From Owenia fusiformis (lineage: Eukaryota > Annelida > Polychaeta > Sabellida > Oweniidae), in the NCBI GenBank assembly GCA_903813345.2, contig CAIIXF020000009.1, forward strand, positions 36,943,759 through 37,007,758: a DNA stretch of 64,000 bases, given 5' to 3'. Both the position numbers and the translations under genes were made by a program. The notes beneath the pieces are model-generated. The model saw nothing but the letters and a program-made list of their open reading frames with translations, was not told the origin of the DNA and searched no databases. Shown in pieces: positions 6,209 to 44,771 of this stretch (its first letter is position 1; each line of letters opens with the position of its first letter).

Positions 6209-9200
6209 CTGTAGGAAACAATAGTGGACAATTAGTTTTATATATATAGTATATATTTATATTTATCCCATACTTGGACGTGTTACAGGTACATAAAGCC
6301 GGTTTGTAAAATCTTATATTTTCATCAGCGGGCAGATATAGCTTTACGTCCCGCTCCAAGCGGGCAGATATAGTATATCTGCCCGCTACGTCATAATCGC
6401 CGCTTGCATATTTGTTCATAATTTGTAACGTTCGCGTAATGACTGTAAACGACAATGGAGAAAACACAGACTATCGGGATCTGTTTGATGGTTTAAAAAA
6501 AGGAAGGAGCATCCACTTAATCAATGAAAAAATTCGAGAAAATAAATGTGGGAATATTTGAGAGAACAGGAAAATCCGCCCACGGCCAAGAAAACAAAAC
6601 TGGACATGAATATTCTAAAATATTTCCACGATTGAACAATGTGAACCAGATGACCAAGATTGGTATGGGATAAACATATTATCCTATAGTCGGTTTAGGA
6701 TATTGGGATTATCCCTTGGCCAATATAATATATTTTCCCTCGGGACCTGCGGCCCTCGGGCAAATATATTATATTTGCCTCGGGATAATCCCAATATCCT
6801 GAACCTCATATAGGATAATCTCTATATATCTTGACCCCTCCTCTTATGTACTTCACTTTCAAAAGTGAGAGGGGGGGGGGTTCAGCAAGATTAATTCATA
6901 ATCAAGTTTTCATTTTATGTTCATATTGTGCAAAGTACAGAGTGTCCATAAAGTCTCTTTATAATTACAATACAGTCTGTGTGTAAAGACAATAATTCAC
7001 TTGTTTTTGAACTAATATAACTTTAAGTGCATTATGTAGAGTAAATAATACCTTAAATATCACCATCAGTATTGATTTATGAACAATTCTGAACAAGTTA
7101 CTAGAATTTATTAAATTGTTAAAATGGCTGCCTTGTAAATTACCCAGCATGCCCTAAATCTTATCAGATCCTGCAGTAGTGTGGTTTTACATACAAGTTA
7201 GTAACAAGGCATTAACATGCAAAATGTCACTACCTACCATTTGTTACAGTCACCGATGGCTGATCACTGACCACTAATTGCCAAACACCAACTGCCAAAC
7301 ACCATCCACAAAACGTTGGACACTTAAGTATAACAATATGTAACCACTCGTGTCGGTGACATGAAACGAGTTTTGATGGACAAGCGAGTAGCCAGGAGGG
7401 TTCAATCTGGCACGGCCAAAAATTCTTTCAAAATCATGCAGTTTTTCACCTTTCTGAGCACTTTTTAAGTGACTTTGGCCATTGTTGGACCAAAATTGTC
7501 ACAAGTGAACCCCCTCTGGAATTTTTCAAAAAGTGAACCCTCCCTTGGCAAATCCTGGCTAAGGGCCTGATGGAGAATGCTTTTGCTGTATTGATGTGTT
7601 TTATTGACTTACCTTCATTCACTTTAGTTTTGAGGTAAGCATCCAGACAAGGCAGAAGCTGTTCATAATGTGGTGTAATAACATGCTTGGGTAGAGTGGA
7701 TGACCAGTGCTCAAGGGCTTTGAGGCCAGCAACAGCCAGGGGCAGATAACTCAACCCTATTTTGAATGCACTCTGGAAATTAAGCATTACAAAGGCCATT
7801 TGGTCTTTCATTACATTAGGTCTCTGGATAGGTATATATAGATATGTGTTTGGTTGAGAATACAAGTGCTGTAAACCCATTCAATGCAAGACTACATTTC
7901 ATTTCACCCTTCTACATTAATGGAAGGTGTTCTGGAGTGTGTATGTGTATAGGGTAACAAGCACATATAATTGGCTGGTGAACACATCTAAAACATAATA
8001 TACCTCCATCTTATTGTGGGAAAATACATGAAATAGAACTGCCTGTATTATATAATTAAACAAGGCATTATCATGAAAAAATGTCACCACCTAGTTGCTA
8101 CCAATATTATGAGTTCAATATTATGTCAGATTTGAACTTCTGAGAACTTGCAGATGATTTTGAAAAAATGGTCAATTTGAGGCAAGTTGAAAAAGACCTT
8201 TTTTAACCTTGTGAACGTCATTGAAGGCCAAGTCTTCAATCTAAAAATCAGATTTCAATTTCAATTTGAAGCAAGTCGAAAAATACCTTTTTGACCTTGA
8301 AAATGTCACTGAAGGTCAAATCTCAGATTTGATCTTCTGAGAACCTGTAAATGATTTTGAAAAAACTTGGTCAATTTGAAGCAAGTTGAAAAAAGACCTT
8401 TTTTTTATCTTTTTTTGATCTTGAGAAGGTCATTGAAGGTCAAACCTGAAATTCAGATTTCAAATTCTGAGAACTTATAGATGATTTTGAAAAAAAGAAT
8501 TGGTCAATTTGAGTTGAAATAATGCCTTTTTTGACCTTGAGAAGGTCGTTGAAGGTCAAATCTCTGACTGCCCACCACCAACCGCTGTCACAAAAAACGG
8601 AAACCATAACAAATGAATATGTCACCACTTTTTGGTGGTGACATAATAGGATATTCCTAAACAGTCAAATAGTCTATGACATGAGCCAACACCAGAGAAA
8701 TGCATCAATGAAGTGATGTTTGGATCAATAACACCTTGTTTTCTTTGGTCTGTGTAATACGAGTAGACTAATATACATGTACTCTCTTAAATTACCTGTA
8801 AGGCTGGTACTATGCTAGTCATGTGAAGCTCCACTATTTCTCTTGGAAGGGCAAGCACTAACATCAAACATGATGCCAGCAAGTCTTCTTTAAATTGCTT
8901 CATCCTACACAAGACCTGGAATCATTAATAAAAAAGTAGTGCATTCAAATTAAGCACAGTACCAAATCATGAAAGATATGATTTCACAAGACACTCTTAT
9001 TTAATTGATAATTCAGAATTCAGTTATATTGGATAGATCCAAGATCTCTTGTCCAAAGCATAATTGTAATACTAAACCCACCTCCTTTGTGAACTTGCTG
9101 AAGAGTAGAAAGGCAGCTTGTCTCTGAGAAATGTTCGATTTGTCATATACATCCACCTCCATGCTGTCATCTTCTCCAACATGCGTCTCACTAGAGTTTA

Positions 9201-12200
9201 CTCCCTGAAAAACAGAAACATTGTATTCATATACATCCACCTCCATGCTGTCATCTTCTCCATGTGTCTCATTAGAGTTCACTCCATGAAAAACAGAAAC
9301 ATTGTGTTCATATACATCCACCTCCATGCTGTCATCTTCTCCAACATGCGTCTCACTTGAGTTCACTCCCTGAAAAACAGTGGCATTGTGTTCATATACA
9401 TCCACCTCCATGCTGTCATCTTCTCCTACATGCGTCTCACTAGAGTTCACTCCCTGAAAAACAGTTGTATTGTGTTCATATACATCCACCTCCATGCTGT
9501 CATCTTCTTCCACATGTGTCTCACAAGAGTTCACTCCCTGAAAAACAGTGGCATTGTGTTCATATACATCCACCTCCATGCTGTCATCTTCTCCCACATG
9601 TGTCTCACTAGAGTTCACTTCCTGAAAAACAGTGGTATTGTGTTCATATACATCCACCTCCATGCTGTCATCTTCTCCCACATGCGTCTCACTAGAGTTC
9701 ACTTCCTGAAAAACAGTGGCATTGTGTTCATATACATCCACCTCCATGCTGTCATCTTCTCCCACATGTGTCTCACTAGAGTTCACTTCCTGAAAAACAG
9801 TGGCATTGTGTTCATATACATCTACCTCCATGCTGTTGTCTTCTCCATGTGTCTCATTAGAGTTCACTTCCTGAAAAACAGAAACATTGTGTTCATATAC
9901 ATCCACCTCCATGCTGTCATCTTCTCCCACATGTGTCTTACTAGAGTTCACTCCCTGAAAAACAGTGGCATTGTGTTCATATACATCCACCTCCATGCTG
10001 TCATCTTCTCCCACATGTGTCTCACAAGAGTTCACTCCCTGAAAAACAGTGGCATTGTGTTCATATACATCCACCTCCATGCTGTCATCTTCTCCCACAT
10101 GTGTCTCACTAGAGTTCACTTCCTGAAAAACAGTGGTATTGTGTTCATATACATCCACCTCCATGCTGTCATCTTCTCCCACATGCGTCTCACTAGAGTT
10201 CACTTCCTGAAAAACAGTGGCATTGTGTTCATATACATCCACCTCCATGCTGTCATCTTCTCCCACATGTGTCTCACTAGAGTTCACTCCCTGAAAAACA
10301 GTGGTATTGTGTTCATATACATCCACCTCCATGCTGTCATCTTCTCCCACATGCGTCTCACTAGAGTTCACTCCCTGAAAAACAGTGGCATTGTGTTCAT
10401 ATACATCCACCTCCATGCTGTCATCTTCTCCCACATGTGTCTCACTAGAGTTCACTCCCTGAAAAACAGTGGCATTATGTTCATATACATCCACCTCAGT
10501 GCTGTCTTCTCCATGTGTCTCACTAGAGTTCACTCCCTGAAAAACAGTGGTATTGTGTTCATATACATCCACCTCCATGCTGTCATCTTCTCCCACATGT
10601 GTCTCACTAGAGTTCAATCCCTGAAAAACAGTAGCATTGTGTTCATATACATCCACCTCCATGCTGTCATCTTCTCCCACATGTGTCTCACTAGAGTTCA
10701 CTCCCTGAAAAACAGTGGCATTGTGTTCATATACATCCACCTCCATGCTGTCATCTTCTCCCACATGTGTCTCACTAGAGTTCACTCCCTGAAAAACAGT
10801 GGCATTGTGTTCATATACATCCACCTCCATGCTGTCATCTTCTCCCACATGCGTCTCAATATAGTTCACTTCCTGAAAAACAGTGGCATTGTGTTCATAT
10901 ACATCCACCTCCATGCTGTCATCTTCTCCCACATGTGTCTCACTAGAGTTCAATCCCTGAAAAACAGTGGCATTGTGTTCATATACATCCACCTCCATGC
11001 TGTCATCTTCTCCCACATGTGTCTCACTAGAGTTCACTCCCTGAAAAACAGTGGCATTGTGTTCATATACATCCACCTCCATGCTGTCATCTTCTCCCAC
11101 ATGCGTCTCAATAGAGTTCACTTCCTGAAAAACAGTGGTATTGTGTTCATATACATCCACCTCCATGCTGTCATCTTCTCCCACATGCGTCTCACTAGAG
11201 TTCACTTCCTGAAAAACAGTGCCATTGTGTTCATATACATCCACCTCCATGCTGTCATCTTCTCCATGTGTCTCATTAGAGTTCACTCCCTGAAAAACAG
11301 TGGCATTGTGTTCATATACATCCACCTACATGATGTCATCTTCTCCCACATGCGTCTCACTAGAGTTCACTCCCTGAAAAACAGAAGCACTCTGTTCATA
11401 TACATCCACCTCCATGCTGTCATCTTCTCCTACATGTGTCTTACTAGAGTTCACTCCCTGAAAAACAGTGGCATTGTGTTCATATACATCCACCTCCATG
11501 CTGTCATCTTCTCCATGTGTCTCACTAGAGTTCACTCCCTGAAAAACAGAAGCACTCTGTTCATATACATCCACTTCCATGCTGTCATCTTCTCCCACAT
11601 GCGTCTCATTAGAGTTCACTCCCTGAAAAACAGAAACACTCTGTTCATATACATCCACCTCCATGCTGTCATCTTCTCCTACATGTGTCTTACTAGAGTT
11701 CACTCCCTGAAAAACAGTGGCATTGTGTTCATATATATCCACCTCCATGCTGTCATCTTCTCCATGTGTCTCACTAGAATTCACTCCCTGAAAAACAGAA
11801 GCACTCTGTTCATATACACCCACCTCCATGCTGTCATCTTCTCCTACATGTATCTCACTAGAGTTCACTCCCTGAAAAACAGTGTCATTGTGTTCATATA
11901 CATCCACCTCCATGCTGTCATCTTCTCCCACATGTGTCTCATTAGAGTTCACTCCCTGAAAAACAAAACATTGTGTTCATATACATCCACCTCCATGCTG
12001 TCTTCTTCTCCCACATACGTCTCATTAGAGTTCACTCCCTGAAAAACAGGAACATTGTGTTATATACATCCACCTCCATGCTGTCATCTTCTCAATGTGC
12101 CTCACTAGAGTTCAATCCCTGAAAAACAGTGGCATTGTGTTCATATACATCCACCTCCATGCTGTCATCTTCTTCATGTGTCTCACTAGAGTTCACTCCC

Positions 12201-15200
12201 TGAAAAACAGTGGCATTGTGTTCATATACATCCACCTCCATGCTGTCATCTTCTCCCACATGTGTCTCACTAGAGTTCACTCCCTGAAAAACAGTGGCAT
12301 TGTGTTCATATACATCCACCTCCATGCTGTCATCTTCTTCATGTGTCTCACTAGAGTTCACTCCCTGAAAAACAGTGGCATTGTGTTCATATACATCCAC
12401 CTCCATGCTGTCATCTTCTCCCACATGTGTCTCATTAGAGTTCACTTCCTGAAAAACAGTGGTATTGTGTTCATATACATCCACCTCCATGCTGTCATCT
12501 TCTCCCACATGTGTCTCACAAGAGTTCACTCCCTGAAAAACAGTGGTATTGTGTTCATATACATCCACCTCCATGCTGTCATCTTCTCCCACATGCGTCT
12601 CACTAGAGTTCACTCCCTGAAAAACAGTGGTATTGTGTTCATATACATCCACCTCCATGCTGTCATCTTCTCCCACATGTGTCTCACTAGAGTTCACTCC
12701 CTGAAAAACAGTGGTATTGTGTTCATATACATCCACCTCCATGCTGTCATCTTCTCCCACATGCGTCTCACTAGAGTTCACTCCCTGAAAAACAGTGGTA
12801 TTGTGTTCATATACATCCACCTCCATGCTGTCATCTTCTCCCACATGTGTCTCACTAGAGTTCACTCCCTGAAAAACAGTGGTATTGTGTTCATATACAT
12901 CCACCTCCATGCTGTCATCTTCTCCCACATGCGTCTCACTAGAGTTCACTCCCTGAAAAACAGTGGCATTGTGTTCATATACATTCACCTCCATGCTGTC
13001 ATCTTCTCCCACATGTGTCTCACTAGAGTTCACTCCCTGAAAAACAGTGGCATTATGTTCATATACATCCACCTCAGTGCTGTCTTCTCCATGTGTCTCA
13101 CTAGAGTTCACTCCCTGAAAAACAGTGGTATTGTGTTCATATACATCCACCTCCATGCTGTCATCTTCTCCCACATGTGTGTCACTAGAGTTCAATCCCT
13201 GAAAAACAGTGGCATTGTGTTCATATACATCCACCTCCATGCTGTCATCTTCTCCCACATGTGTCTCACTAGAGTTCACTCCCTGAAAAACAGTGGCATT
13301 GTGTTCATATACATCCACCTCCATGCTGTCATCTTCTCCCACATGCGTCTCAATAGAGTTCACTTCCTGAAAAACAGTGGCATTGTGTTCATATACATCC
13401 ACCTCCATGCTGTCATCTTCTCCCACATGTGTCTCAATAGAGTTCACTTCCTGAAAAACAGTGGTATTGTGTTGATATACATCCACCTCCATGCTGTCAT
13501 CTTCTCCCACATGCGTCTCACTAGAGTTCACTTCCTGAAAAACAGTGGCATTGTGTTCATATACATCCACCTCCATGCTGTCATCTTCTCCATGTGTCTC
13601 ATTAGAGTTCACTCCCTGAAAAACAGTGGGATTTTGTTCATATACATCCACCTACATGATGTCATCTTCTCCCACATGCGTCTCACTAGAGTTCACTCCC
13701 TGAAAAACAGAAGCACTCTGTTCATATACATCCACCTCCATGCTCTCATCTTCTCCTACATGTGTCTTACTAGAGTTCACTCCCTGAAAAACAGTGCCAT
13801 TGTGTTCATATACATCCACCTCCATGCTGTCATCTTCTCCATGTGTCTCACTAGAGTTCACTCCCTGAAAAACAGAAGCACTCTGTTCATATACATCCAC
13901 TTCCATGCTGTCATCTTCTCCCACATGCGTCTCATTAGAGTTCACTCCCTGAAAAACAGAAACACTCTGTTCATATACATCCACCTCCATGCTGTCATCT
14001 TCTCCTACATGTGTCTTACTAGAGTTCACTCCCTGAAAAACAGTGGCATTGTGTTCATATATCCACCTCCATGCTGTCATCTTCTCCATGTGTCTCACTA
14101 GAATTCACTCCCTGAAAAACAGAAGCACTCTGTTCATATACACCCACTTCCATACTGTCATCTTCTCCCACATGCGTCTCATTAGAGTTCACTCCCTGAA
14201 AAACAGAAACATTGTGTTCATATACATCCACCTCCATGCTGTTATCTTCTTCATGTGTCTCACTAGAGTTCACTCCCTGAAAAACAGTGGCATTTTGTTC
14301 ATATACATCCACTTCCATGCTGTCATCTTCTCCCACATGCGTCTCACTCGAGTTCACTCCCTGAAAAACAGAAACATTGTGTTCATATACATCCACCTCC
14401 ATGCTGTCATCTTCTCCATGTGTCTCACTAGAGTTTAATCCCTGAAAAACAGTGGCATTGTGTTCATATACATCCACCTCCATGCTGTCATCTTCTTCAT
14501 GTGTCTCACTAGAGTTCACTCCCTGAAAAACAGTGGCATTGTGTTCATATACATCCACCTCCATGCTGTCATCTTCTCTTACATGTGTCTCATTAGAGTT
14601 CACTCCCTGAAAAACAGAAACATTGTGTTCATATACATCCACCTCCATGCTGTCTTCTTCTCCCACATGCGTCTCATTAGAGTTCACTCCCTGAAAAACA
14701 GGAACATTGAGTTCATATACATCCACCTCCATGCTGTCATCTTCTTCATGTGTCTCACTAGAGTTCACTCCCTGAAAAACAGTGGCATTGTGTTCATATA
14801 CATCCACTTCCATGCTGTCATCTTCTCCCACATGCGTCTCATTAGAGTTCACTCCCTGAAAAACAGAAACATTGTGTTCATATACATCAACCTCCATGCT
14901 GTCATCTTCTTCATGTGTCTCACTAGAGTTCACTCCTTGAAAAACAGAAACACTCTGTTCATATACATCCACTTCCATGCTGTCATCTTCTCCCACATGC
15001 GTCTCATTAGAGTTCACTCCCTGAAAAACAGAAACACTCTGTTCATATACATCAACCTCCATGCTGTCATCTTCTTCATGTGTCTCACTAGAGTTCACTC
15101 CCTGAAAAACAGTGGCATTGTGTTCATATACATCCACCTCCATGCTGTCATCTTCTCCCACATGCGTCTCACTAGAGTTCACTTCCTGAAAAACAGTGGC

Positions 15201-18200
15201 ATTGTGTTCATATACATCCACCTCCATGCTGTCATCTTCTCCCACATGTGTCTCACTAGAGTTCACTCCCTGAAAAACAGTGGTATTGTGTTCATATACA
15301 TCCACCTCCATGCTGTCATCTTCTCCCACATGCGTCTCACTAGAGTTCACTCCCTGAAAAACAGTGGCATTGTGTTCATATACATCCACCTCCATGCTGT
15401 CATCTTCTCCCACATGTGTCTCACTAGAGTTCACTCCCTGAAAAACAGTGGCATTATGTTCATATACATCCACCTCAGTGCTGTCTTCTCCATGTGTCTC
15501 ACTAGAGTTCACTCCCTGAAAAACAGTGGTATTGTGTTCATATACATCCACCTCCATGCTGTCATCTTCTCCCACATGTGTCTCACTAGAGTTCAATCCC
15601 TGAAAAACAGTGGCATTATGTTCATATACATCCACCTCCATGCTGTCATCTTCTCCCACATGTGTCTCACTAGAGTTCACTCCCTGAAAAACAGTGGCAT
15701 TGTGTTCATATACATCCACCTCCATGCTGTCATCTTCTCCCACATGCGTCTCAATAGAGTTCACTTCCTGAAAAACAGTGGCATTGTGTTCATATACATC
15801 CACCTCCATGCTGTCATCTTCTCCATGTGTCTCACTAGAGTTCACTCCCTGAAAAACAGTGGCATTGTGTTCATATACATCCACCTCCATGCTGTCATCT
15901 TCTCCCACATGCGTCTCAATAGAGTTCACTTCCTGAAAAACAGTGGCATTGTGTTCATATACATCCACCTCCATGCTGTCATCTTCTCCCACATGTGTCT
16001 CACTAGAGTTCAATCCCTGAAAAACAGTGGCATTGTGTTCATATACATCCACCTCCATGCTGTCATCTTCTCCCACATGTGTCTTACTAGAGTTCACTCC
16101 CTGAAAAACAGTGGCATTGTGTTCATATACATCCACCTCCATGCTGTCATCTTCTCCCACATGCGTCTCAATAGAGTTCACTTCCTGAAAAACAGTGGTA
16201 TTGTGTTCATATACATCCACCTCCATGCTGTCATCTTCTCCCACATGCGTCTCACTAGAGTTCACTTCCTGAAAAACAGTGGCATTGTGTTCATATACAT
16301 CCACCTCCATGCTGTCATCTTCTCCATGTGTCTCATTAGAGTTCACTCCCTGAAAAACAGTGGCATTGTGTTCATATACATCCACCTACATGATGTCATC
16401 TTCTCCCACATGCGTCTCACTAGAGTTCACTCCCTGAAAAACAGAAGCACTCTGTTCATATACATCCACCTCCATGCTGTCATCTTCTCCTACATGTGTC
16501 TTACTAGAGTTCACTCCCTGAAAAACAGTGGCATTGTGTTCATATACATCCACCTCCATGCTGTCATCTTCTCCATGTGTCTCACTAGAGTTCACTCCCT
16601 GAAAAACAGAAGCACTCTGTTCATATACATCCACTTCCATGCTGTCATCTTCTCCCACATGCGTCTCATTAGAGTTCACTCCCTGAAAAACAGAAACACT
16701 CTGTTCATATACATCCACCTCCATGCTGTCATCTTCTCCTACATGTGTCTTACTAGAGTTCACTCTCTGAAAAACAGTGGCATTGTGTTCATATATATCC
16801 ACCTCCATGCTGTCATCTTCTCCATGTGTCTCACTAGAATTCACTCCCTGAAAAACAGAAGCACTCTGTTCATATACACCCACCTCCATGCTGTCATCTT
16901 CTCCTACATGTGTCTCACTAGAGTTCACTCCCTGAAAAACAGTGGCATTGTGTTCATATACATCCACCTCCATGCTGTCATCTTCTCCCACATGTGTCTC
17001 ATTAGAGTTCACTCCCTGAAAAACAAAACATTGTGTTCATATACATCCACCTCCATGCTGTCTTCTTCTCCCACATGCGTCTCATTAGAGTTCACTCCCT
17101 GAAAAACAGGAACATTGTGTTCATATACATCCACCTCCATGCTGTCATCTTCTCAATGTGCCTCACTAGAGTTCAATCCCTGAAAAACAGTGGCATTGTG
17201 TTCATATACATCCACCTCCATGCTGTCATCTTCTTCATGTGTCTCACTAGAGTTCACTCCCTGAAAAACAGTGGCATTGTGTTCATATACATCCACCTCC
17301 ATGCTGTCATCTTCTCCCACATGTGTCTCACTAGAGTTCACTCCCTGAAAAACAGTGGCATTGTGTTCATATACATCCACCTCCATGCTGTCATCTTCTT
17401 CATGTGTCTCACTAGAGTTCACTCCCTGAAAAACAGTGGCATTGTGTTCATATACATCCACCTCCATGCTGTCATCTTCTCCCACATGTGTCTCATTAGA
17501 GTTCACTTCCTGAAAAACAGTGGTATTGTGTTCATATACATCCACCTCCATGCTGTCATCTTCTCCCACATGTGTCTCACAAGAGTTCACTCCCTGAAAA
17601 ACAGTGGTATTGTGTTCATATACATCCACCTCCATGCTGTCATCTTCTCCCACATGCGTCTCACTAGAGTTCACTCCCTGAAAAACAGTGGTATTGTGTT
17701 CATATACATCCACCTCCATGCTGTCATCTTCTCCCACATGTGTCTCACTAGAGTTCACTCCCTGAAAAACAGTGGTATTGTGTTCATATACATCCACCTC
17801 CATGCTGTCATCTTCTCCCACATGCGTCTCACTAGAGTTCACTCCCTGAAAAACAGTGGCATTGTGTTCATATACATCCACCTCCATGCTGTCATCTTCT
17901 CCCACATGTGTCTCACTAGAGTTCACTCCCTGAAAAACAGTGGCATTATGTTCATATACATCCACCTCAGTGCTGTCTTCTCCATGTGTCTCACTAGAGT
18001 TCACTCCCTGAAAAACAGTGGTATTGTGTTCATATACATCCACCTCCATGCTGTCATCTTCTCCCACATGTGTCTCACTAGAGTTCAATCCCTGAAAAAC
18101 AGTGGCATTGTGTTCATATACATCCACCTTAATGCTGTCATCTTCTCCCACATGTGTCTCACTAGAGTTCACTCCCTGAAAAACAGTGGCATTGTGTTCA

Positions 18201-21200
18201 TATACATCCACCTCCATGCTGTCATCTTCTCCCACATGCGTCTCAATAGAGTTCACTTCCTGAAAAAGAGTGGCATTGTGTTCATATACATCCACCTCCA
18301 TGCTGTCATCTTCTCCCACATGTGTCTCAATAGAGTTCACTTCCTGAAAAACAGTGGTATTGTGTTCATATACATCCACCTCCATGCTGTCATCTTCTCC
18401 CACATGCGTCTCACTAGAGTTCACTTCCTGAAAAACAGTGGCATTGTGTTCATATACATCCACCTCCATGCTGTCATCTTCTCCATGTGTCTCATTAGAG
18501 TTCACTCCCTGAAAAACAGTGGGATTTTGTTCATATACATCCACCTACATGATGTCATCTTCTCCCACATGCGTCTCACTAGAGTTCACTCCCTGAAAAA
18601 CAGAAGCACTCTGTTCATATACATCCACCTCCATGCTGTCATCTTCTCCTACATGTGTCTTACTAGAGTTCACTCCCTGAAAAACAGTGGCATTGTGTTC
18701 ATATACATCCACCTCCATGCTGTCATCTTCTCCATGTGTCTCACTAGAGTTCACTCCCTGAAAAACAGAAGCACTCTGTTCATATACATCCACTTCCATG
18801 CTGTCATCTTCTCCCACATGCATCTCATTAGAGTTCACTCCCTGAAAAACAGAAACACTCTGTTCATATACATCCACCTCCATGCTGTCATTTTCTCCTA
18901 CATGTGTCTTACTAGAGTTCACTCCCTGAAAAACAGTGGCATTGTGTTCATATATATCCACCTCCATGCTGTCATCTTCTCCATGTGTCTCACTAGAATT
19001 CACTCCCTGAAAAACAGAAGCACTCTGTTCATATACACCCACCTCCATGCTGTCATCTTCTCCTACATGTGTCTCACTAGAGTTCACTCCCTGAAAAACA
19101 GTGGCATTGTGTTCATATACATCCACCTCCATGCTGTCATCTTCTCCCACATGTGTCTCATTAGAGTTCACTCCCTGAAAAACAAAACATTGTGTTCATA
19201 TACATCCACCTCCATGCTGTCTTCTTCTCCCACATGCGTCTCATTAGAGTTCACTCCCTGAAAAACAGGAACATTGTGTTCATATACATCCACCTCCATG
19301 CTGTCATCTTCTCAATGTGCCTCACTAGAGTTCAATCCCTGAAAAACAGTGGTATTGTGTTCATATACATCCACCTCCATGCTGTCATCTTCTCCCACAT
19401 GTGTCTCACTAGAGTTCAATCCCTGAAAAACAGTGGCATTTTGTTCATATACATCCACCTCCATGATGTCATCTTCTCCAACATGCGTCTCACTTGAGTT
19501 CACTCCCTGAAAAACAGAAACATTGTGTTCATATACATCCACCTCGATGCTGTCATCTTCTTCATGTGTCTCACTAGAGTTCACTCCCTGAAAAACAGTG
19601 GCATTGTGTTCATATACATCCACTTCCATACTGTCATCTTCTCCCACATGCGTCTCATTAGAGTTCACTCCCTGAAAAACAGAAACATTGTGTTCATATA
19701 CATCCACTTCCATACTGTCATCTTCTCCCACATGCGTCTCATTAGAGTTCACTCCCTGAAAAACAGAAACATTGTGTTCATATACATCCACCTCCATGCT
19801 GTCATCTTCTTCATGTGTCTCACTAGAGTTCACTCCCTGAAAAACAGTGGCATTTTGTTCATATACATCCACTTCCATGCTGTCATCTTCTCCCACATGC
19901 GTCTCACTCGAGTTCACTCCCTGAAAAACAGAAACATTGTGTTCATATACATCCACCTCCATGCTGTCATCTTCTCCATGTGTCTCACTAGAGTTTAATC
20001 CCTGAAAAACAGTGGCATTGTGTTCATATACATCCACCTCCATGCTGTCATCTTCTTCATGTGTCTCACTAGAGTTCACTCCCTGAAAAACAGTGGCATT
20101 GTGTTCATATACATCCACCTCCATGCTGTCATCTTCTCTTACATGTGTCTCATTAGAGTTCACTCCCTGAAAAACAGAAACATTGTGTTCATATACATCC
20201 ACCTCCATGCTGTCTTCTTCTCCCACATGCGTCTCATTAGAGTTCACTCCCTGAAAAACAGGAACATTGAGTTCATATACATCCACCTCCATGCTGTCAT
20301 CTTCTTCATGTGTCTCACTAGAGTTCACTCCCTGAAAAACAGTGGCATTGTGTTCATATACATCCACTTCCATGCTGTCATCTTCTCCCACATGCGTCTC
20401 ATTAGAGTTCACTCCCTGAAAAACAGAAACATTGTGTTCATATACATCAACCTCCATGCTGTCATCTTCTTCATGTGTCTCACTAGAGTTCACTCCTTGA
20501 AAAACAGAAACACTCTGTTCATATACATCCACTTCCATGCTGTCATCTTCTCCCACATGCGTCTCATTAGAGTTCACTCCCTGAAAAACAGAAACACTCT
20601 GTTCATATACATCAACCTCCATGCTGTCATCTTCTTCATGTGTCTCACTAGAGTTCACTCCCTGAAAAACAGTGGCATTGTGTTCATATACATCCACCTC
20701 CATGCTGTCATCTTCTCCATGTGTCTCATTAAAGTTCAATCCCTGAAAAACAGTGGCATTGTGTTCATATACATCCACCTCCATGTTGTCATCTTCTACA
20801 TGTGTCTCATTAGAGTTCACTCCCTGAAAAACAGTGGCATTGTGTTCATATACATCCACCTCAATGCTTTCATCTTCTCCTACATCTTACTAGAGTTAAA
20901 ATCAAAACTCATGATATTTCTCAAGGGGAACTAGGTGCAGAGGGATTTCCATCACAGCAAAATTGAATGAAATTGGTTATTTTTAAATTTCAACGGGTGC
21001 AGGATCCTTTCGTTTGAATGCATGGAAATGCCAGATGAAAATCTGATAATTGGTTAACATTGAACCATATTTGATCAGCATATATGGGTGCACTTTTTGG
21101 TGGTGACATAAAAATGATATTTTCAACACAGTGGCAATTTCAAGCGGTATTCAAAAGCTGCATTTAATGATTTCGAGACAATTCAACAACAAGGCATTAT

Positions 21201-24200
21201 TAAGATGCTCAATATTACCACCATTTGTTACAGACACCAACCGCCAGTTGCCAACCGCCGTCACTTTTTGGTGGTGACATAAAAATGATATTTTTCCACC
21301 AGTTAGGAAACTGCTGTATTTATTTAGACATCATATCTGTAAATACCATGGTAACTACAGAAAAGAGTAATTATAATGTGTTTACACATGTGTTTGTAAG
21401 TATCACTATAGTTAAAGTCCTTACCTTGAAATAGTGAGTTTTGCTGGCGATTGTCATACATACAGATAACAGCTTGTACAGACCACTCACAAGGGGCTGC
21501 CTGAAGTTAAAAAAAATACAGTATGTCACTTTTAAATTCTTTATAAAAATTGCATCCATGTAACTTGGGCTTCGGTAGTGGAGCAATTAATCTTTTAGTT
21601 GGGGGGTTAGGTCTGTCTTTCTCTGATTTGGAATGGTGAAAAGCTTAATTACACTTAATACTGTGTCTTGTATAAAGATTCAAAGAAGTGATATGTACAT
21701 AGAAAACATTGATATTACATTACAATGAATTCTTGGTGGATTTTTTAAACCCAGTGCAATATATGACAAGCTGACTTGACAGGGTCATGTCCTCGTTATA
21801 GGGGCAGTAATCTAGTATAAATTGAAGTAAACTACAAAATAGCCTAAAACTGAAAACCTTTTTAGCTGTATGATCATAATGTTAAATAATGATTGCAGGC
21901 TCTGTTTATTAAATGGCAAGTATCAAAACTTACTTGGTGGAAAGAATGATGATATCTTGGCCAAATACTAGCACCCAACTTGTGAATAGCTCACACTGCT
22001 TCTCAGGTAGCATATCTCTGCAATATATAATCATTCTCACATGACGCACCAAAATGCCTGACATTTTATCATATGACTTGTGAATAGCTCACACTGCTTC
22101 TCAGGTAGCATATCTCTGCAATATATAATCATTCTCACATGACTCACCAGAATGCCTCACATTTTATCATATGACTTGTGAATAGCTCACACTGCTTCTC
22201 AGGTAGCATATCTCTGCAATATATAATCATTCTCACATGACGCACCAAAATGCCTCACATTTTATCATATGACTTGTGAATAGCTCACACTGCTTCTCAG
22301 GTAGCATATCTCTGCAACATATAATCATTCCCACATGACTCACCAGAATGCGTCACATTTTATCATATGACTTGTGAATAGCTCACACTGCTTCTCAGGT
22401 AGCATATCTCTGCAATATATAATCATTCCCACATGACTCACCAGAATGCGTCACATTTTATCATATGACTTGTGAATAGCTCACACTGCTTCTCAGGTAG
22501 CATATCTCTGCAATATATAATCATTCTCACATGACTCACCAGAATGCCTCACATTTTATCATATGACTTGTGAATAGCTCACACTGCTTCTCAGGTAGCA
22601 TATCTCTGCAATATATAATCATTCTCACATGACACACCAAAATGCCTCACATTTTATCATATGACTTGTGAATAGCTCACAATGCTTCTCAGGTAGCATA
22701 TCTCTGCAATATATAATCATTCCCACATGACTCACCAGAATGCCTCACATTTTATCATATGACTTAAGAATAGCTCACACTGCTTCTCAGGTAGCATATC
22801 TCTGCAACATATAATCATTCCCACATGACTCACCAGAATGCGTCACATTTTATCATATGACTTGTGAATAGCTCACACTGCTTCTCAGGTAGCATATCTC
22901 TGCAATATATAATCATTCTCACATGACTCACCAGAATGCCTCACATTTTATCATATGACTTAAGAATAGCTCACACTGCTTCTCAGGTAGCATATCTCTG
23001 CAATATATAATCATTCTCACATGATTCACCAGAATGCCTCACATTTTATCATATGACTTGTGAATAGCTCACACTGCTTCTCAGGTAGCATATCTCTGTA
23101 ATATATAATCATTCTCACATGACGCACCAAAATGCCTCACATTTTATCATATGACTTGTGAATAGCTCACACTGCTTCTCAGGTAGCATATCTCTGCAAT
23201 ATATAATCATTCCCACATGACTCACCAGAATGCCTCACATTTTATCATATGACTTGTGAATAGCTCACACTGCTTCTCAGGTAGCATATCTCTGCAATAT
23301 ATAATCATTCCCACATGACTCACCAGAATGCGTCACATTTTATCATATGACTTGTGAATAGCTCACACTGCTTCTCAGGTAGCATATCTCTGCAATATAT
23401 AATCATTCTCACATGACTCACCAGAATGCCTCACATTTTATCATATGACTTGTGAATAGCTCACACTGCTTCTCAGGTAGCATATCTCTGCAATATATAA
23501 TCATTCTCACATGACTCACCAGAATGCCTCACATTTTATCATATGACTTGTGAATAGCTCACACTGCTTCTCAGGTAGCATATCTCTGCAATATATAATC
23601 ATTCTCACATGACGCACCAAAATGCCTGACATTTTATCATATGACTTGTGAATAGCTCACACTGCTTCTCAGGTAGCATATCTCTGCAATATATAATCAT
23701 TCCCACATGACTCACCAAAATGCCTCACATTTTATCATATGACTTGTGAATAGCTCACACTGCTTCTCAGGTAACATATCTCTGCAATATATAATCATTC
23801 TCACATGACTCACCAGAATGCCTCACATTTTATCATATGACTTGTGAATAGCTCACACTGCTTCTCAGGTAGCATATCTCTGCAATATATAATCATTCCC
23901 ACATGACTCACCAGAATGCCTCACATTTTATCATATGACTTGTGAATAGCTCACACTGCTTCTCAGGTAGCATATCTCTGCAATATATAATCATTCCCAC
24001 ATGACTCACCAGAATGCCTGACATTTTATCATATGACTTGTGAATAGCTCACACTGCTTCTCAGGTAGCATATCTCTGCAATATATAATCATTCCCACAT
24101 GACTCACCAAAATGCCTCACATTTTATCATATGACTTGTGAATAGCTCACACTGCTTCTCAGGTAGCATATCTCTGCAATATATAATCATTCCCACATGA

Positions 24201-27200
24201 CTCACCAGAATGCCTGACATTTTATCATATGACTTGTGAATAGCTCACACTGCTTCTCAGGTAGCATATCTCTGCAATATATAATCATTCCCACATGACT
24301 CACCAGAATGCCTCACATTTTATCATATGACTTGTGAATAGCTCACACTGCTTCTCAGGTAGCATATCTCTGCAATATATAATCATTCCCACATGACTCA
24401 CCAGAATGCCTGACATTTTATCATATGACTTGTGAATAGCTCACACTGCTTCTCAGGTAGCATATCTCTGCAATATATAATCATTCCCACATGACTCACC
24501 AAAATGCCTCACATTTTATCATATGACTTGTGAATAGCTCACACTGCTTCTCAGGTAACATATCTCTGCAATATATAATCATTCTCACATGACGCACCAA
24601 AATGCCTGACATTTTATCATATGACTTGTGAATAGCTCACACTGCTTCTCAGGTAGCATATCTCTGCAACATATAATCATTCTCACATGATTCACCAGAA
24701 TGCCTCACATTTTATCATATGACTTGTGAATAGCTCACACTGCTTCTCAGGTAGCATATCTCTGCAATATATAATCATTCTCACATGATTCACCAGAATG
24801 CGTCACATTTTATCATATGACTTGTGAATAGCTCACACTGCTTCTCAGGTAGCATATCTCTGCAATATATAATCATTCCCACATGACTCACCAGAATGCG
24901 TCACATTTTATCATATGACTTGTGAATAGCTCACACTGCTTCTCAGGTAGCATATCTCTGCAATATATAATCATTCTCACATGACTCACCAGAATGCCTC
25001 ACATTTTATCATATGACTTAAGAATAGCTCACACTGCTTCTCAGGTAGCATATCTCTGCAATATATAATCATTCCCACATGACTCACCAGAATGCGTCAC
25101 ATTTTATCATATGACTTGTGAATAGCTCACACTGCTTCTCAGGTAGCATATCTCTGCAATATATAATCATTCTCACATGACTCACCAGAATGCCTCACAT
25201 TTTATCATATGACTTGTGAATAGCTAACACTGCTTCTCAGGTAGCATATCTCTGCAATATATAATCATTCCCACATGGCTCACCAGAATGCCTCACATTT
25301 TATCATATGACTTCGACTTGTGAATAGCTCACACTGCTTCTCAGGTAGCATATCTCTGCAATATATAATCATTCTCACATGACGCACCAAAATGCCTCAC
25401 ATTTTATCATATGACTTGTGAATAGCTCACACTGCTTCTCAGGTAGCATATCTCTGCAATATATAATCATTCTCACATGACTCACCAGAATGCCTCACAT
25501 TTTATCATATGACTTGTGAATAGCTCACACTGCTTCTCAGGTAGCATATCTCTGCAATATATAATCATTCTCACATGACTCACCAGAATGCGTCACATTT
25601 TATCATATGACTTGTGAATAGCTCACACTGCTTCTCAGGTAGCATATCTCTGCAATATATAATCATTCTCACATGACTCACCAGAATGCGTCACATTTTA
25701 TCATATGACTTGTGAATAGCTCACACTGCTTCTCAGGTAGCATATCTCTGCAATATATAATCATTCTCACATGACTCACCAGAATGCGTCACATTTTATC
25801 ATATGACTTAAGAATAGCTCACACTGCTTCTCAGGTAGCATATCTCTGCAATATATAATCATTCTCACATGACTCACCAGAATGCGTCACATTTTATCAT
25901 ATGACTTGTGAATAGCTCACACTGCTTCTCAGGTAGCATATCTCTGCAATATATAATCATTCTCACATGACTCACCAGAATGCCTCACATTTTATCATAT
26001 GACTTGTGAATAGCTCACACTGCTTCTCAGGTAGCATATCTCTGCAATATATAATCATTCTCACATGACACACAAAAATGCCTCACATTTTATCATATGA
26101 CTTGTGAATAGCTCACAATGCTTCTCAGGTAGCATATCTCTGCAATATATAATCATTCCCACATGACTCACCAAAATGCCTCACATTTTATCATATGACT
26201 TAAGAATAGCTCACACTGCTTCTCAGGTAGCATATCTCTGCAATATATAATCATTCTCACATGACTCACCAGAATGCCTCACATTTTATCATATGACTTG
26301 TGAATAGCTCACACTGCTTCTCAGGTAGCATATCTCTGCAATATATAATCATTCCCACATGGCTCACCAGAATGCCTCACATTTTATCATATGACTTGTG
26401 AATAGCTCACACTGCTTCTCAGGTAGCATATCTCTGCAATATATAAGCATTCTCACATGACTCACCAGAATGCCTCACATTTTATCATATGACTTGTGAA
26501 TAGCTCACACTGCTTCTCAGGTAGCATATCTCTGCAACATATAATCATTCTCACATGACCCACCAGAATGTGTCACATGACTCATCAGAATGCGTCACAA
26601 TTTATCATATGACTTGAACAGAATCTAAACACATGAATAAAATCAGACAATTTTTTCAAACCTTACATCGGTCTACAATATATGATTTGAATTTGTTCTT
26701 GCCAAGTCAACTATTCCTCACCTGGTAAAGTCCACAAGATTGATGAAGATCTGGAAGTCTTTGGGTTTCCTTGCTTGTAGACCATGTGCAGGGTCAGAGG
26801 ACATTTCTTCTGAGGGTGAAGGTGTAGCAGCTCTATCAGATGGTCCAGCAACTGGCTCCTGAAATTAACAGTTACCTATAGAGGAGTCTCTCCATGATAT
26901 CTTAAATGGTTTGACATTTGAATATACAAGGGAATGTGGAATATCCTTTTTGCAACAATTATGTTGTCAATTCTGACTAAAAAAAGTCTCAGCTGGATAG
27001 AAACATAAACTGTTTAGTAAAGAAAATGTGAAATGCTTAAGAAATGTGTCTCTCATTAATGAAAAGTGCCTCTTTACCTCAAGTGTATTCTGAATTTCAG
27101 TCACTTTATTCGATGACAGGTCTAGTTTGTGGAGCATCCTCAAGATGGCACTGATCAATTCATCATAAATTGCACGTGTCATTGCATCACGTTCACTCAG

Positions 27201-33200: not shown

Positions 33201-36200
33201 GTTCCCATGTCCCACATATATTAATTTGATACTGCATCATATGTCCCCTTTATGGTTCTAATTATTACACCAATAATAACAATTTTATCTACCATAACAG
33301 CCTCAGAATAATAAACTTTATAAGGTAGACCCTTGATTATAGGTGGCGCTTCTGTATATTTGAGGCAAAATGACCCATCAAATGACCTTCCAGGATCACC
33401 TAAAAATTCAAATGCATAGTTTAGGAAGTAGTCTCTAAGGAAAAAGCAAAAAAATAAATATGAAATTAGGTTTGGCTGAAAAAAAAATTAATTAAGATTA
33501 TCACCCTGCAACTTTAAAATCACTAGATGGCGCCACTATAACCTGCCATAAAAATTGATTTTACCCAAACCTGAAAAAATAACTTATGGATTCCTACACT
33601 TCAGGGTATCTTCTAAAAGAAAATCAAAAGTTATTTCATTCTAAATCCGAGTAAGCTCAGAGAGGCTAGGGACAGGACTATAACTAATAAAGGAATATTT
33701 CACCAGGAAGAAATACTCCTATCATAATTTTATATACTAATTGTTCAAATAAGTCAACCAAAACATTTTTTCTAATTTAGTTAAAATCAGAGCCAACAAA
33801 CTTCAATTTACCTGAAAAGAAACAATTCAAAATGACAATGATGGAAAAGTAGCAACTCACTTTGAATGTAGCTCCATCCCTTTCTCCATCTGATGCCTTG
33901 GCAACCAGCATATCAGATAACTACAAAAGAAATATATTGTTATGACATTTCACAAAAATAAATAAAATAACAGGGGAAATAAGTAATTGCCTTATAATGA
34001 GAAAAAATTTAGTTTAGATTCAACTAGGCTCGAAAACCTTAAGAACGAATAATATATAACAAATTAGTATCAATGGATTACCAAATGACTATTTAATACT
34101 TTTCACAATTTCAAATAGTATTTCATTTTCATTTCATTTGAGTTACATATCTCAAACAGACACCATAGGGCATATCCGTGTGGTAGGATAATGTAACTTG
34201 ATATTAGGGCTGGCACGGAACGGAACGGAATCGGAACGGAACGGATTTCGGAACTTGGCTTCGGAATTCGGAACTTTCGGAATTTCGGACCTTATTTAAA
34301 ATAGTTCCTACTTCTCCCCTTAAGTTCTCAGTTTTGTCACCATTGGAACAGCAGTATACAACTACATATATATAAGTTGTATCATGTTTATTAAATACAA
34401 ACACTAACACTATCTAACTGCCAGAACAAGTGGCATAAATGTTCAAAACTAATGGCAAAATGTTAATGTCCTTGCCTTCTTGGCACCTTGGCACACAACT
34501 GTTACTGTCTTTCTTTCAATAATAATCTTTTCTTATAGGTGCAGAATATATATAAAACAATCATACTTTATTTATTTCTATCATTTATTACATATAAAAC
34601 AACTTTACCAAGTGAAAATGTTTAATAATTATACATATTTATTGATTTCGTTTCATAATACTAGTTCGCTATAGCGAGTTAGCTTCACAGTATAACGATA
34701 AGGGAATGTTCTTTAAGGAAATAAAAGTTCCGAAATTTATCGGAATATGATAAGGTAGGTCCGAAATTCCGTTTCCGAAGGCAAAATCGGACGGTTCGGA
34801 CAATAATTCCGTTCCGTGCCAGCCCTACTTGATATCCTAAGGTAGATACAGCTCTCCGTATTAATCTGACAAGAATTGGCATCTTTATCCTGGCTAGGAC
34901 CACAGACAGTTCAAGCCAGCACAGGCCATTTATCGAGCTAGTATCACTCTAGTAATCAACTCTCTGGTGTACAAGTCAGCACAAGCTGGCGCCGCAAGCT
35001 GGGATTGAACCCAGGACCATTTATGCATCACTGTTGATGTATTCAATCAAACTAACTATAATTGCAATATATCATTTGAGGTAATATAGGAGATATACAA
35101 TACACCAATATACAAGTGAAGTACCTGTTTGAGAAAGGCTTCGAGTGCACTTATTCCAAGGTAATGGACATCTCTGTTGTGGTGTGCTGACCAGAAAACA
35201 AGGTAGTCATGAATTTGCTGAAATGCAAAGTACAAGTGGTCATGCATTCACTAAAATCAAATTTTGCGAGAACAAATATTGGTTTTCATCCAAATTAAAT
35301 CAAATCTTATCCACATTTAACTTACCAAATGAATTTAAAGTTCTGATCCTGATAAGATTTTGAACAATCTCAAATGTAACCTTCAATGGCAGTTTGATTT
35401 CGAAATAAATGTCTCGCAAGATAAAGAAAGCAAATGTAGTGACATGCTCTTCTGACTACACAACCTGATTGAAAATTTTTCTCTTTAGACAGTACAACAT
35501 TGAGCTCTTTGAAATCTTCCAGTTGGGTTACAGTATACCTTGTGGTCCTCATAGAGGTATTCATTGAACTGGCCAGCATGCTTTGTTATGAGATTCAGAG
35601 CTGCTCTGAGGTGATCGTATTTGGAGTATACATTAGCCTTGTTAAGAATCTGTCTCACCACCTTGTAGATATCATAAGCATGTTTAGACCCTGAAATAGT
35701 TGAACCAGTACATGTAGTACAGGCCCGTAGCCAGGACTTGGAAAATTCCAGGGGGGTTCACATTTGACAATTTTGGTCCAAAAATGGCCAAAATCACTTA
35801 AAAAGTGCTCAGAATGGTGAAAAACTGCATGAATTGAAATGTTGTAGATGATCAGATAAAAACTGTTCTATTGCTCAATTGTGTAATACTAATATACCCA
35901 ATAATAACATACCACAAACCCCCAACCCCCAAGTAGTTTGTCAAACTGTATCAAATAGAAGTTACATTATTCCCTTCTCAATGTTATTCCTTTAATAAAA
36001 CCTGGCTTCTCGCCCTCTCCCTAACATTATAGGATGTATGTTTCAGAAAAATCATACACATACATTCATATTTTGCTGAGCCTCCAATAAAACCAAATAA
36101 ACTTGAAATTGCTTTTCAATAGTAAAGTCCCAGCAAAAGTGTTAATCAATGTTTTAAGGATCATGATATGTGACAATAGTAAAAATCCAATTGTGTATGT

Positions 36201-39200
36201 TATGAGTTATGAGTTTTGCAACATTACCTTCAGAAGCAGATTGTGTAAAGTTGACTAAGTAAGAGACAAGACCCTCCATGCAACCAGCTATCACTCCCCA
36301 CTTCACTGTCTTAGATGTCTTCATCTACAATAACAACATACAATGTAAACATACAATAACAACATAATCAGCTATCACTCCCCACTTCACTGTCTTAGAT
36401 GTCTTCATCTACAATAACAACATACAATGTAAACATACAATAACAACATAATCAGCTATCACTCCCCACTTCACTGTCTTAGATTTCTTCATCTACAATA
36501 ACAACATACAATGTAAACATACAATAACAACATAATCAGCTATCACTCCCCACTTCACTGTCTTAGATGTCTTCATCTACAATAACAACATACAATGTAA
36601 ACATACAATAACAACATAATCAGCTATCACTCCCCACTTCACTGTCTTAGATGTCTTCATCTACAATAACAACATACAATAACAACATAATCAGCTATCA
36701 CTCCCCACTTCACTGTCTTAGATGTCTTCATCTACAATAACAACATACAATGTAAACATACAATAACAACATAATCAGCTATCACTCCCCACTTCACTGT
36801 CTTAGATGTCTTCATCTACAATAACAACATACAATGTAAACATACAATAACAACATAATCAGCTATCACTCCCCACTTCACTGTCTTAGATGTCTTCATC
36901 TACAATAACAACATACAATGTAAACATACAATAACAACATACAATATAAATACAGAATAAGAGGACAACATCAGAATACACCCAAGTATAACTCAGGACT
37001 TAAGGTTTTACTGTACTATCATTTGATTTGTGTTTTTCTCATGATATACACTTTGCACTTTCTCAATTATATGATGATCTAGGATACAACCTAAATTCAG
37101 ACTTCCATAATATGAAGTCTTACTTACTTCTTGGTTAAGTGTCTGTAAGTAAATTCTCAGCAGTTTTTCGTTGTATTTAATCATTTCACTAGGGTAGACC
37201 TCACATATCATCCCCAGAAGCGCATAGATATTTCTTCTAACTAAATCATAGTTAAATCAAATTATTGATTAAATATATAATTATACAAAGGAACATCTAT
37301 ACACATTTCAATCACGAGCCATTTTTTTCTTCAAGATTTGAAAATGTCCTAAAACATTGTTAAGATGCTTAAGTATCTGAACTACTGTACTCCCAGTTAA
37401 TTTTGCGAGTTTTAATTTCGCGAATTTTGAGAAAACATGATTTCACATATTCTAATTTTGCAGATTCCATAATTTAAAACTCAATTTTCTCTGAATCCTC
37501 AAGCTCTGCAAATAAAGTAACCTCAAATACAATTAGTACACCTACCTAATGTCATATTTGGATAAGATTTACAATTACTTCTAGATCTTGGCCAACGGCA
37601 CGCTGCACCTTAACTTCTATAACATTGTCATTTTTGGGTTTATTTGATCTATTTGACAGAAATCATTGCTTTGCATCGCATTTATTGCCCAATTAAACTG
37701 GACAAACGTTTTACAAAACATGAAACATTAGTTTTATTGGGCAATAAATGACTTTTGGACAAATGTTTTCCAAAACATGAAACGCAATGAAGTCCCAGGT
37801 AACAAAACATTTCACAAACCCCAAGGGATTTAATTTACAATTTTGCAAAGATTAATTTTCGCGTTTATACCACAATCGCAAAAAGCTTGAAACTAAATCA
37901 CACACAAAAAATACTGGGAGTACAGTAAATTACTGTTTTATATTTTATCAAGGTATCAGTTACATATCAACATTTTTAGATTTTTTTTAAAATCGATACA
38001 GTATGGTATGCTCACCCATTTGGACCTGTTTGCTCTCTGGTTTAGCCAATTCATTGAAGAACCTTAGTATCAGTTTAGCTACATCTAGCTCAGCCTCCAT
38101 CTTGGTTCCCATGGTAACCTCCATCACCTATGGCAAAACAGGATTCCTCAAATCATATAACATTACACTAAAGGTATTTACTTAATTTTAATGAAAACAA
38201 ACCAGGGGCTATCATTTGTCAACAGAAAATATTTATCATTGCCAATAGAATAACTCATTTTTACTCATTTACATTGCAACTGGTAACTTAGTAACTTTAC
38301 TTAGTAACTGGCATAATCAGTTAATGGAATGTATCATGCAAATTGTCACAAGCTGCCATTCGTTACAGATACCAAATGCCAACCACTAAACACCATTCAC
38401 CAAAAACATTGGAGATTATAACAGTATGTCACCACTTCTGATGATGATATAATATCGAGGCTTACCCTGGTAAGGAGTGGTAAAGAGTCTGCTTTAACCT
38501 TGTTGGACTTATCCCTAGTAAACAGTGAAATACACACATCCTGGAAGTCATATTCATACACATCAACATCAATTGATTTCAGCAACAAATTCAGCAACAA
38601 AGACTAATTTACAAGATAATGACACAAATTGTTGACAAGTACGAGTAATATTTGAGTTATGATAATATAGCACTATATATTTATATAATCTGACAACTCC
38701 TGTTTTTTATCTTATTAAACCATATGAAATTATTTAATATCACATCACATTGCATTATGTAGTATTGATTCCAAAGCTTCCCTCAATCACTCACCTTGAT
38801 ATCCACTGTGTATGGCAATATTTTCTTGCCCACATGCTCAATGAGAACAGAAAGTGTTTCAAGAAGACATTTCTTTGCATTTGCATACTCTACAACCTGA
38901 AATTTAAAAAACATACTTTAAAAACCACAAGATGGTGCAACATGATGGAATGTTGGAAGCAACATTTAAAGTATCAGATCAAATATGCAAGTAATCAAAT
39001 TCTGCAAGCATTGTTTAGAAGTAGTTTAAAAAATGAACTCACTTCAAATTGGATCGCACTTCTCAGAAATGGAATAACACCAGTAGTGGCATCAAATAGC
39101 ACAGATAAGTTGTGATCTGCAAAGAAATAATAGGCCAATTTAGTCACTTTACACATGGTGAAAAGAATATGTGAATTTATGTAAGAAAAAAAAACAATCA

Positions 39201-43979: not shown

Positions 43980-44771
43980 CTCTATTATCGCCCACCAGTT
44001 TCCCCAACCTGGTTATTATGAAACGAATATACATTTCATTCTTACATTTGAAAGCGCACCTTCTGGAATTATCCAGTTATCATTTAAAAGTGATCTAAAA
44101 AGAGAATAGATATTGTTATATCCTATATCAATCAAACGAAAAACAGTTTGTTTGACAGTGCTATTTTTCACCACTCTAAATTTGATCGGTCCCTAAATTA
44201 TGATCACGTGACGGCACAACAATATTGACCTACATTTGAAAGGGAAAAGTTCAACCCACCTTTCGAAATTGACCGTGAGAAAATTCCATTTACCGAACAA
44301 AAACAGGATAAATCAATATAAGATTTTGATTATTAGCAGTTAGGTATGTATGGATTATTTATACGTAAAATTTGATGTAATCTGGAATGATATATATTGA
44401 TAATTTTGACCATTTTCTGAGAATCAAACCGTCTTATTTTAATTTTAGCAACTCAAAGCCATTCAAATCAAAACATTGATAGATATAGGTCAGTGGTTTC
44501 ATTCATATGGACTCATGTATTCATATTCTATTTTAGGATCCAGTGATCACAATGAGTCCACAACCAGGCTACAGCCAAGGCAAAATACAACAAATGGGTG
44601 TAACACTATGATTAACTTTTCAACGTTTCATCCATCGCAAAGTTTTGGAGACTGGATTACGAGCCTAGTGATCAACAGTCAACTCATTAGATGAATAATA
44701 TAGAACTTTAGGGACTTTGTATGATTTAAGGATTAGCTGTACACCTGAAATGCAAGTCCCGACATGAAGGG
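43980..44771. promoter_or_regulatory. Shared head-to-head promoter region of PRKDC and ARL4
   Basis: About 790 bases separate the PRKDC start codon (minus) from the ARL4 start codon (plus), so both promoters must lie here unless distant 5' exons exist. I see no clear TATA box or CpG island. An upstream ATG at 44764 lies out of frame just before the ARL4 start. Confidence 0.5.

Follow-up and report, generated by a model that had tools for sequence, protein, structure and literature searches.

Mirage-like minisatellites at three splice acceptors of the PRKDC gene in the annelid Owenia fusiformis

Three minisatellite arrays lie in the 5' part of PRKDC, the gene for DNA-PKcs, in a stretch of 64,000 nucleotides from the annelid Owenia fusiformis (contig CAIIXF020000009.1, forward-strand positions 36,943,759 to 37,007,758; this whole stretch is the window, and positions below are counted in it unless a contig or locus is named). 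Each array repeats a unit made of an intron tail, an AG acceptor and the first bases of the exon that it abuts. Tandem repeats of this kind, spanning an exon boundary, have been known from amphioxus for some twenty years under the name of mirages (PMC3087553, PMC3902484), and the present arrays have every defining mirage feature that could be tested. Very probably, the three arrays are mirages, that is, minisatellites born of tandem duplications across an exon boundary, which would be tolerated if splicing uses the innermost copy. New here are the phylum, the copy numbers and, apparently, the abundance of such arrays.

Results

Three acceptor arrays in one gene

When the translations of joined exons of the window were compared with a PDB set, DNA-PKcs was the only protein matched at E <= 0.001 (6 of 6 distinct sequences, best E 3e-87). 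Human DNA-PKcs as the query gives a colinear chain of 38 matches on the minus strand that covers human residues 76-2429; 16 of these matches fall inside the window (7449..38893, minus strand) and 22 in the adjoining 80 kb, the matches extending 78 kb past the window's left end. Colinearity was the criterion by which the chain was picked, and taken singly some of its links are weak, the weakest having an E of 12. Exons of the Pfam domain DNAPKcs_CC3 (PF08163) give six matches at C9:36872949-36883963, all on the same strand.

The arrays themselves are real: Tandem Repeats Finder (TRF) places them within 14 bp of where an earlier note, made from the letters of the window, had seen them, and the composition of the units given there is exact. 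Array 1 (9143..20885, minus strand; 84 bp x 141.5, 91% matches) runs over 11.7 kb with up to 141 copies, its unit holding 62 exon bases and 22 bases of intron tail, with 141 acceptor sites. The unit of array 2 (21978..26578, minus strand; 98 bp x 46.9, 96% matches) has 40 exon and 58 tail bases and is present in 47 acceptor copies, and that of array 3 (36285..36941, minus strand; 84 bp x 8.0, 90% matches) has 40 and 44, in 8 acceptor copies. In all three, the last copy on the minus strand is continued directly by a longer open exon, with a GT donor at its end. These functional exons, whose splice ends were read by eye, lie on the minus strand at 9082..9204 for array 1 (GVNSSETHVGEDDSMEVDVYDKSNISQRQAAFLLFSKFTKE), 21934..22017 for array 2 (DMLPEKQCELFTSWVLVFGQDIIILSTK) and 36228..36324 for array 3 (MKTSKTVKWGVIAGCMEGLVSYLVNFTQSASE). 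The latter two align with human DNA-PKcs in the PDB comparison and belong to the chain; the start of the array 1 exon aligns with human GVSPKSLKHSPED in the same comparison, and its end resembles, by eye, human CFALFVKFGKE. Given that the exon which a unit abuts supplies both its intron tail and its exon bases, the origin of the arrays is local.

The copies are homogenised. Array 1 contains nested higher-order repeats and shared variants, the mark of concerted evolution that is also found in mirages, and its units measure 84 (96 units), 81 (35), 78 (4), 83 (3), 79 (1) and 80 (1) bases. Spacing in array 2 is 98 in 45 of 46 cases and 104 in the remaining one, and array 3 has a single spacing of 71 bp. 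The acceptor AG is intact at 138/141 sites of array 1, 47/47 of array 2 and 8/8 of array 3. The three units are mutually unrelated, as the earlier note held: their longest common words are 9, 8 and 7 bases (E >= 0.34; the 71-bp copy stood for array 3 in this comparison). An origin of the array 2 unit as dispersed mobile DNA is not supported, all 22 of 22 genome matches, a lower bound, being at the array itself. A CAAG microhomology is present at the upstream edge of array 2, seen in this one array.

The true exon is the transcript-distal copy in every case, which confirms a further observation of the note; the use made there of this common polarity as evidence fails, since it is forced by geometry and carries no information. 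Since such a unit holds the acceptor and an exon start that is cut short, it can repeat only outside the exon, so that the copy joined to the rest of the exon is always last in the transcript. Arrays at donors elsewhere in the genome (loci L031, L038, L047 and L064, described below) show the mirror polarity.

Boundary arrays recur in unrelated genes

Splice-site-straddling repeats were also looked for in a sample of myosin and kinesin genes, comprising the best 30 of 92 listed Myosin_head and the best 30 of 144 listed Kinesin match loci, chosen regardless of repeats. Merging overlaps leaves 50 regions totalling 174.4 kb, in which homology mapping places 137 exons; as the sample takes best-scoring family matches, long conserved exons are over-represented. 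Arrays were counted from a period of 25 bp and 2.8 copies upwards (n=24) and taken as straddling when the unit held 8 or more exon bases; some arrays were read only in part. Ten of the 24 straddle a boundary, against about 2-4 expected: six at acceptors (L024, L027, two in L043, L055 and L063) and four at donors (L031, L038, L047 and L064). The remainder were scored as non-straddling, among them L018 (at a donor, with only 4 exon bases in the unit), the array at L068 2074-2243 (whose unit begins at the donor GT), L054, L067, L023 and L035, and also arrays that a locus end truncates or that were not read at single-base level, namely L014 and L016, two of the three in L022, and the greater part of L037 and of the first array of L015.

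Support for the exon concerned was obtained in 8 of the 10 cases. The exons at L024, the first array of L043 and L063 are above the Pfam curated cut-off; those at L031 (E 0.0018), the second array of L043 (8e-4) and L055 (0.0019) are below it; and the L064 exon has a PDB sequence match (E 8e-17). The L027 exon has no Pfam match of its own; the last copy continues the myosin frame there and the next exon reads VGKSKLFLRYW. For the donor cases L038 and L047, no exon homology was found in the Pfam and PDB comparisons. Boundary arrays thus recur in unrelated genes, at acceptors and at donors; the occurrence at both boundaries that is typical of mirages is seen in this genome outside PRKDC, through L031 (with weak homology), L038, L047 and L064. 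A class confined to acceptors was accordingly rejected, with 4 of 10 arrays at donors (4 versus 6, binomial P 0.75). Of the arrays with at least 94% matches, 7/11 straddle, versus 3/13 of the others, which implies that young arrays are mostly boundary-straddling.

Three observations were made beside this count. In a kinesin gene at C2:23266359-23269174, read at both ends (L069 and L070), 18 tandem copies spaced by 158-159 bp form a further acceptor case outside the 10/24; the unit, the longest among the boundary arrays seen, holds most of one exon, and the last copy runs on into that real exon. At L015, two unrelated intronic minisatellites (1-1422 and 1749-2147) closely flank one myosin exon and do not enter it. 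About a dozen diverged and irregularly spaced copies of the exon for head positions ~18-84 occur in a muscle-type myosin gene at C9:37986009-37994334; these are probably mutually exclusive exons, not a minisatellite.

Are boundary arrays more frequent than chance predicts?

The chance model places a tandem duplication of the observed period at random with respect to exon boundaries. With the 137 mapped exons it predicts 2.06 straddling arrays, versus 10 counted (P ~2.5e-6, 1 of 400,000 draws). An ab initio estimate puts the exons of the sample at 168-247 over six thresholds, with at least 204 in five of the six; raising the exon number 1.5- or 1.8-fold (205-247) gives 3.1 or 3.7 expected (P 2.6e-4 or 1.1e-3), and a two-fold increase P 2.8e-3. 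In PRKDC, where arrays with a period of at least 20 bp and at least 5 copies were counted over the 144 kb read, 3 of 6 straddle a boundary, versus 0.23-0.33 expected (P 0.001-0.003; 39 exons were used for this expectation, 38 matches being counted now, and a span of 117 kb), a post hoc figure, as the window was picked for its arrays.

Several results weigh against an excess. It depends on the exon count: with three times the exon number, 6.19 straddling arrays are expected and P is 0.05. When only the 8 supported cases are retained, P is 4.5e-4 at the mapped number and 6e-3, 0.019 and 0.034 at 1.5, 1.8 and 2 times that number; when only boundaries of mapped exons are considered (L024, L063 and the first array of L043), 3/24 versus 2.06 expected is not significant, and 7 of the 10 straddling arrays sit at exons that the automatic mapping missed. 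In the 80 kb of PRKDC outside the window, none of the three arrays (27 bp x 30.5, 71 bp x 5.0 and 79 bp x 5.3) is at a boundary, two of them having been read and the 27-bp one placed from the exon map only. Enrichment of boundary-straddling arrays over chance is likely rather than certain. Of the suggestion that acceptor regions are prone to local duplication, one part stands, in that boundary regions of this genome, and not of PRKDC alone, carry local tandem duplications, probably above chance; its restriction to acceptors does not.

Would the decoy acceptors be used?

Reading through from an upstream (decoy) acceptor meets a stop after 25-76 bases for all 46 of 46 array 2 decoys; the 7 of 7 in array 3 meet theirs after 72-81 bases, so that 53/53 hit a stop within 81 bases. 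An intact conserved protein hence implies use of the last copy in these two arrays, unless a decoy is spliced out again. As far as can be judged from sequence, the conserved PRKDC frame and the stops that follow the decoys would speak for undisturbed normal splicing.

Two regularities of the arrays weigh against this reading. In array 2, a GTG-type donor-like site stands at +66 from the acceptor in 40/46 decoys, and 39/40 of the enclosed stretches are stop-free in the frame of the gene, so decoy use need not break the protein; the donor-like motif CTGGTGAGT is present in 29/48 array 2 sites, and the unit could in principle be a 22-codon (66-base) cassette exon. (The idea that array 2 units are poison exons with in-frame stops is wrong on the same count, the stops arising only on read-through.) In array 1, unit length is divisible by 3 in 135/140 units, a regularity that our reading explains only by a small number of independent indel events.

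In an alternative reading, which the donor-like sites of array 2 would fit, the decoys are used. Array 1 would then form an in-frame acceptor ladder, giving rise to isoforms of DNA-PKcs that carry as many as 25 additional repeats, the array 2 units would be optional cassettes, and read-through in arrays 2 and 3 would yield nonsense isoforms that tune expression. That nearly all acceptors are intact is in line with this possibility, as is the finding that from 25/140 array 1 decoys, those closest to the exon, the frame stays open as far as the exon end. Homogenisation alone, however, would keep the AGs intact, and sequence constraint is not detectable in array 1. Moreover, only 32 bases separate the donor-like site of array 2 from the next acceptor, too short for an ordinary intron, so that splicing out of a cassette would need to pass over that acceptor to one further on. 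We consider use of the decoys quite unlikely; the suggestion of the note that arrays of competing acceptors are tolerated appears to hold.

Array 1 evolves without detectable coding constraint

Array 1 could alternatively be a giant coding exon, or coding variable-number tandem repeat, in which an upstream acceptor would insert many repeats of 28 residues, one per 28-codon unit, into a loop of DNA-PKcs. The frame is striking: besides the preserved unit length, 132/140 units have no in-frame stop, minus-strand frames reach 776 codons and the 25 units nearest the exon are open through to its end. Yet plus-strand frames in the array reach 893 codons, long frames being a consequence of a stop-free consensus. 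Frameshifts and stops break the frame in several places, so that a transcript spliced to the first acceptor would encode a truncated protein, and inspection distinguishes about two frame-keeping and about three frame-breaking independent classes of indel. The acceptor AG, moreover, is retained at nearly every site.

The 64 distinct variants of the array comprise 46 nonsynonymous and 16 synonymous changes and 2 stops, versus 47.2, 15.0 and 1.8 expected under neutrality; stops thus arise at the expected rate and these counts reveal no purifying selection on the reading frame. Variation affects 3.0% of cells in the exon part versus 6.5% in the tail, a difference to which a handful of tail columns contribute most. 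When only the 84-bp units within the last 25 are taken, the distinct variants number 11 nonsynonymous and 6 synonymous with no stop, too few to decide. Because the variant counts fit the neutral expectation, array 1 evolves without detectable coding constraint, as if neutral, and a coding array, rejected by this test, is distinctly improbable.

An assembly artefact is extremely improbable: the exact copy numbers of such highly identical arrays are uncheckable without reads, but the copies differ (about 9% in array 1 by TRF, with nested higher-order repeats) and similar structures recur at unrelated loci.

Other features of the window

Just downstream of the array 1 exon, the segment 8000-9200 contains a dispersed repeat, with at least 108 matches in the genome (67-95% identity), often as adjacent pieces. 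In a PRKDC intron, near-identical frames of 88 codons at 29721-29984 (plus strand) and 33224-33487 (minus strand) lie inverted about 3.2 kb apart and enclose a minus-strand frame of 858 bp (31528-32385); together they look like a mobile element. An open frame of 203 codons at 44730-45338, on the plus strand and thus opposite to PRKDC, may encode a small GTPase of the ARF/ARL family, which it resembles.

Discussion

The earlier note knew of no described class to which the PRKDC arrays could belong. The class exists: mirages are such structures and occur in amphioxus at both exon boundaries, with Adh3, the globins BflGb6 and BflGb9, TnC and PGBD5 as examples (PMC3087553, PMC3902484). BflGb6 has a minisatellite-like duplication of an intron 3' end with the 5' part of the exon, and BflGb9 one at an exon 3' boundary; AG or GT signals are present in many units, and normal splicing is apparently left intact (PMC3087553, PMC3902484). 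The amphioxus units are further described as evolving in concert, as a proposed route to new introns and as possibly a general cephalochordate feature (PMC3087553). The Owenia PRKDC units likewise span the exon-intron boundary, carry the AG and evolve in concert. In contrast to BflGb6, with its 6 and 3 units, there are here up to 141 copies over 11.7 kb, in an annelid genome in which 10/24 of the sampled gene arrays are of this kind. In keeping with an annelid, this genome matches the erythrocruorin linker family PF16915, which is not known from other phyla, at three places above the family's cut-off (E 5e-7 to 5e-4); mitochondrial COX1 has no match in the assembly. The part of the open-licence literature available yielded no boundary arrays outside cephalochordates, which is no proof of their absence.

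Two other systems are comparable in part. Intron gain by tandem genomic duplication of proto-splice sites also involves tandem duplication that includes splice signals; in PRKDC, by contrast, an existing boundary is multiplied and no new intron is claimed. In an annelid, the earthworm metallothionein gene has intronic minisatellites and duplications of its fourth exon, and the exon copies are absent from the transcript (PMC12783039); unlike for the PRKDC arrays, units that span a splice boundary are not stated in the excerpt available.

How could such arrays arise and persist? We hypothesize that each was born by a tandem duplication that happened to span an exon boundary and would have grown by ordinary minisatellite turnover, through slippage and unequal exchange. 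If, under exon definition, each donor is joined to whichever acceptor lies closest upstream of it, and each acceptor to the closest donor downstream, the authentic copy, being innermost, would be used and the extra copies, which lie outside the exon by geometry, would leave with the intron; this pairing of innermost acceptor and donor would be the reason why the extra copies are tolerated. There is a conflict in this: should the original branch point be located upstream of the short tail, the copy closest to it is the first one, whereas the copy closest to the downstream donor is the last.

More broadly, it is an evenly balanced proposition that splice-boundary minisatellites are pervasive in this annelid genome, at ~4-5% of sampled exons (10 arrays over ~205-247 estimated exons) or several times the random prediction. 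Some property of splice boundaries might promote them, be it breakage linked to transcription or the constrained exon copy acting to rescue and homogenise the others, and throughout the genome they might provide splice sites that compete with one another and material from which new exons and introns could form.

Abundance in an annelid genome would make a second, apparently independent case of mirages after the cephalochordates. Up to 141 near-identical acceptors before one exon constitute a natural large-scale test of acceptor choice, setting the nearest branch point against the nearest downstream donor, and gene predictors may misplace exon borders in such genomes. The proposal that mirages seed introns, finally, becomes directly testable by comparing related worms.

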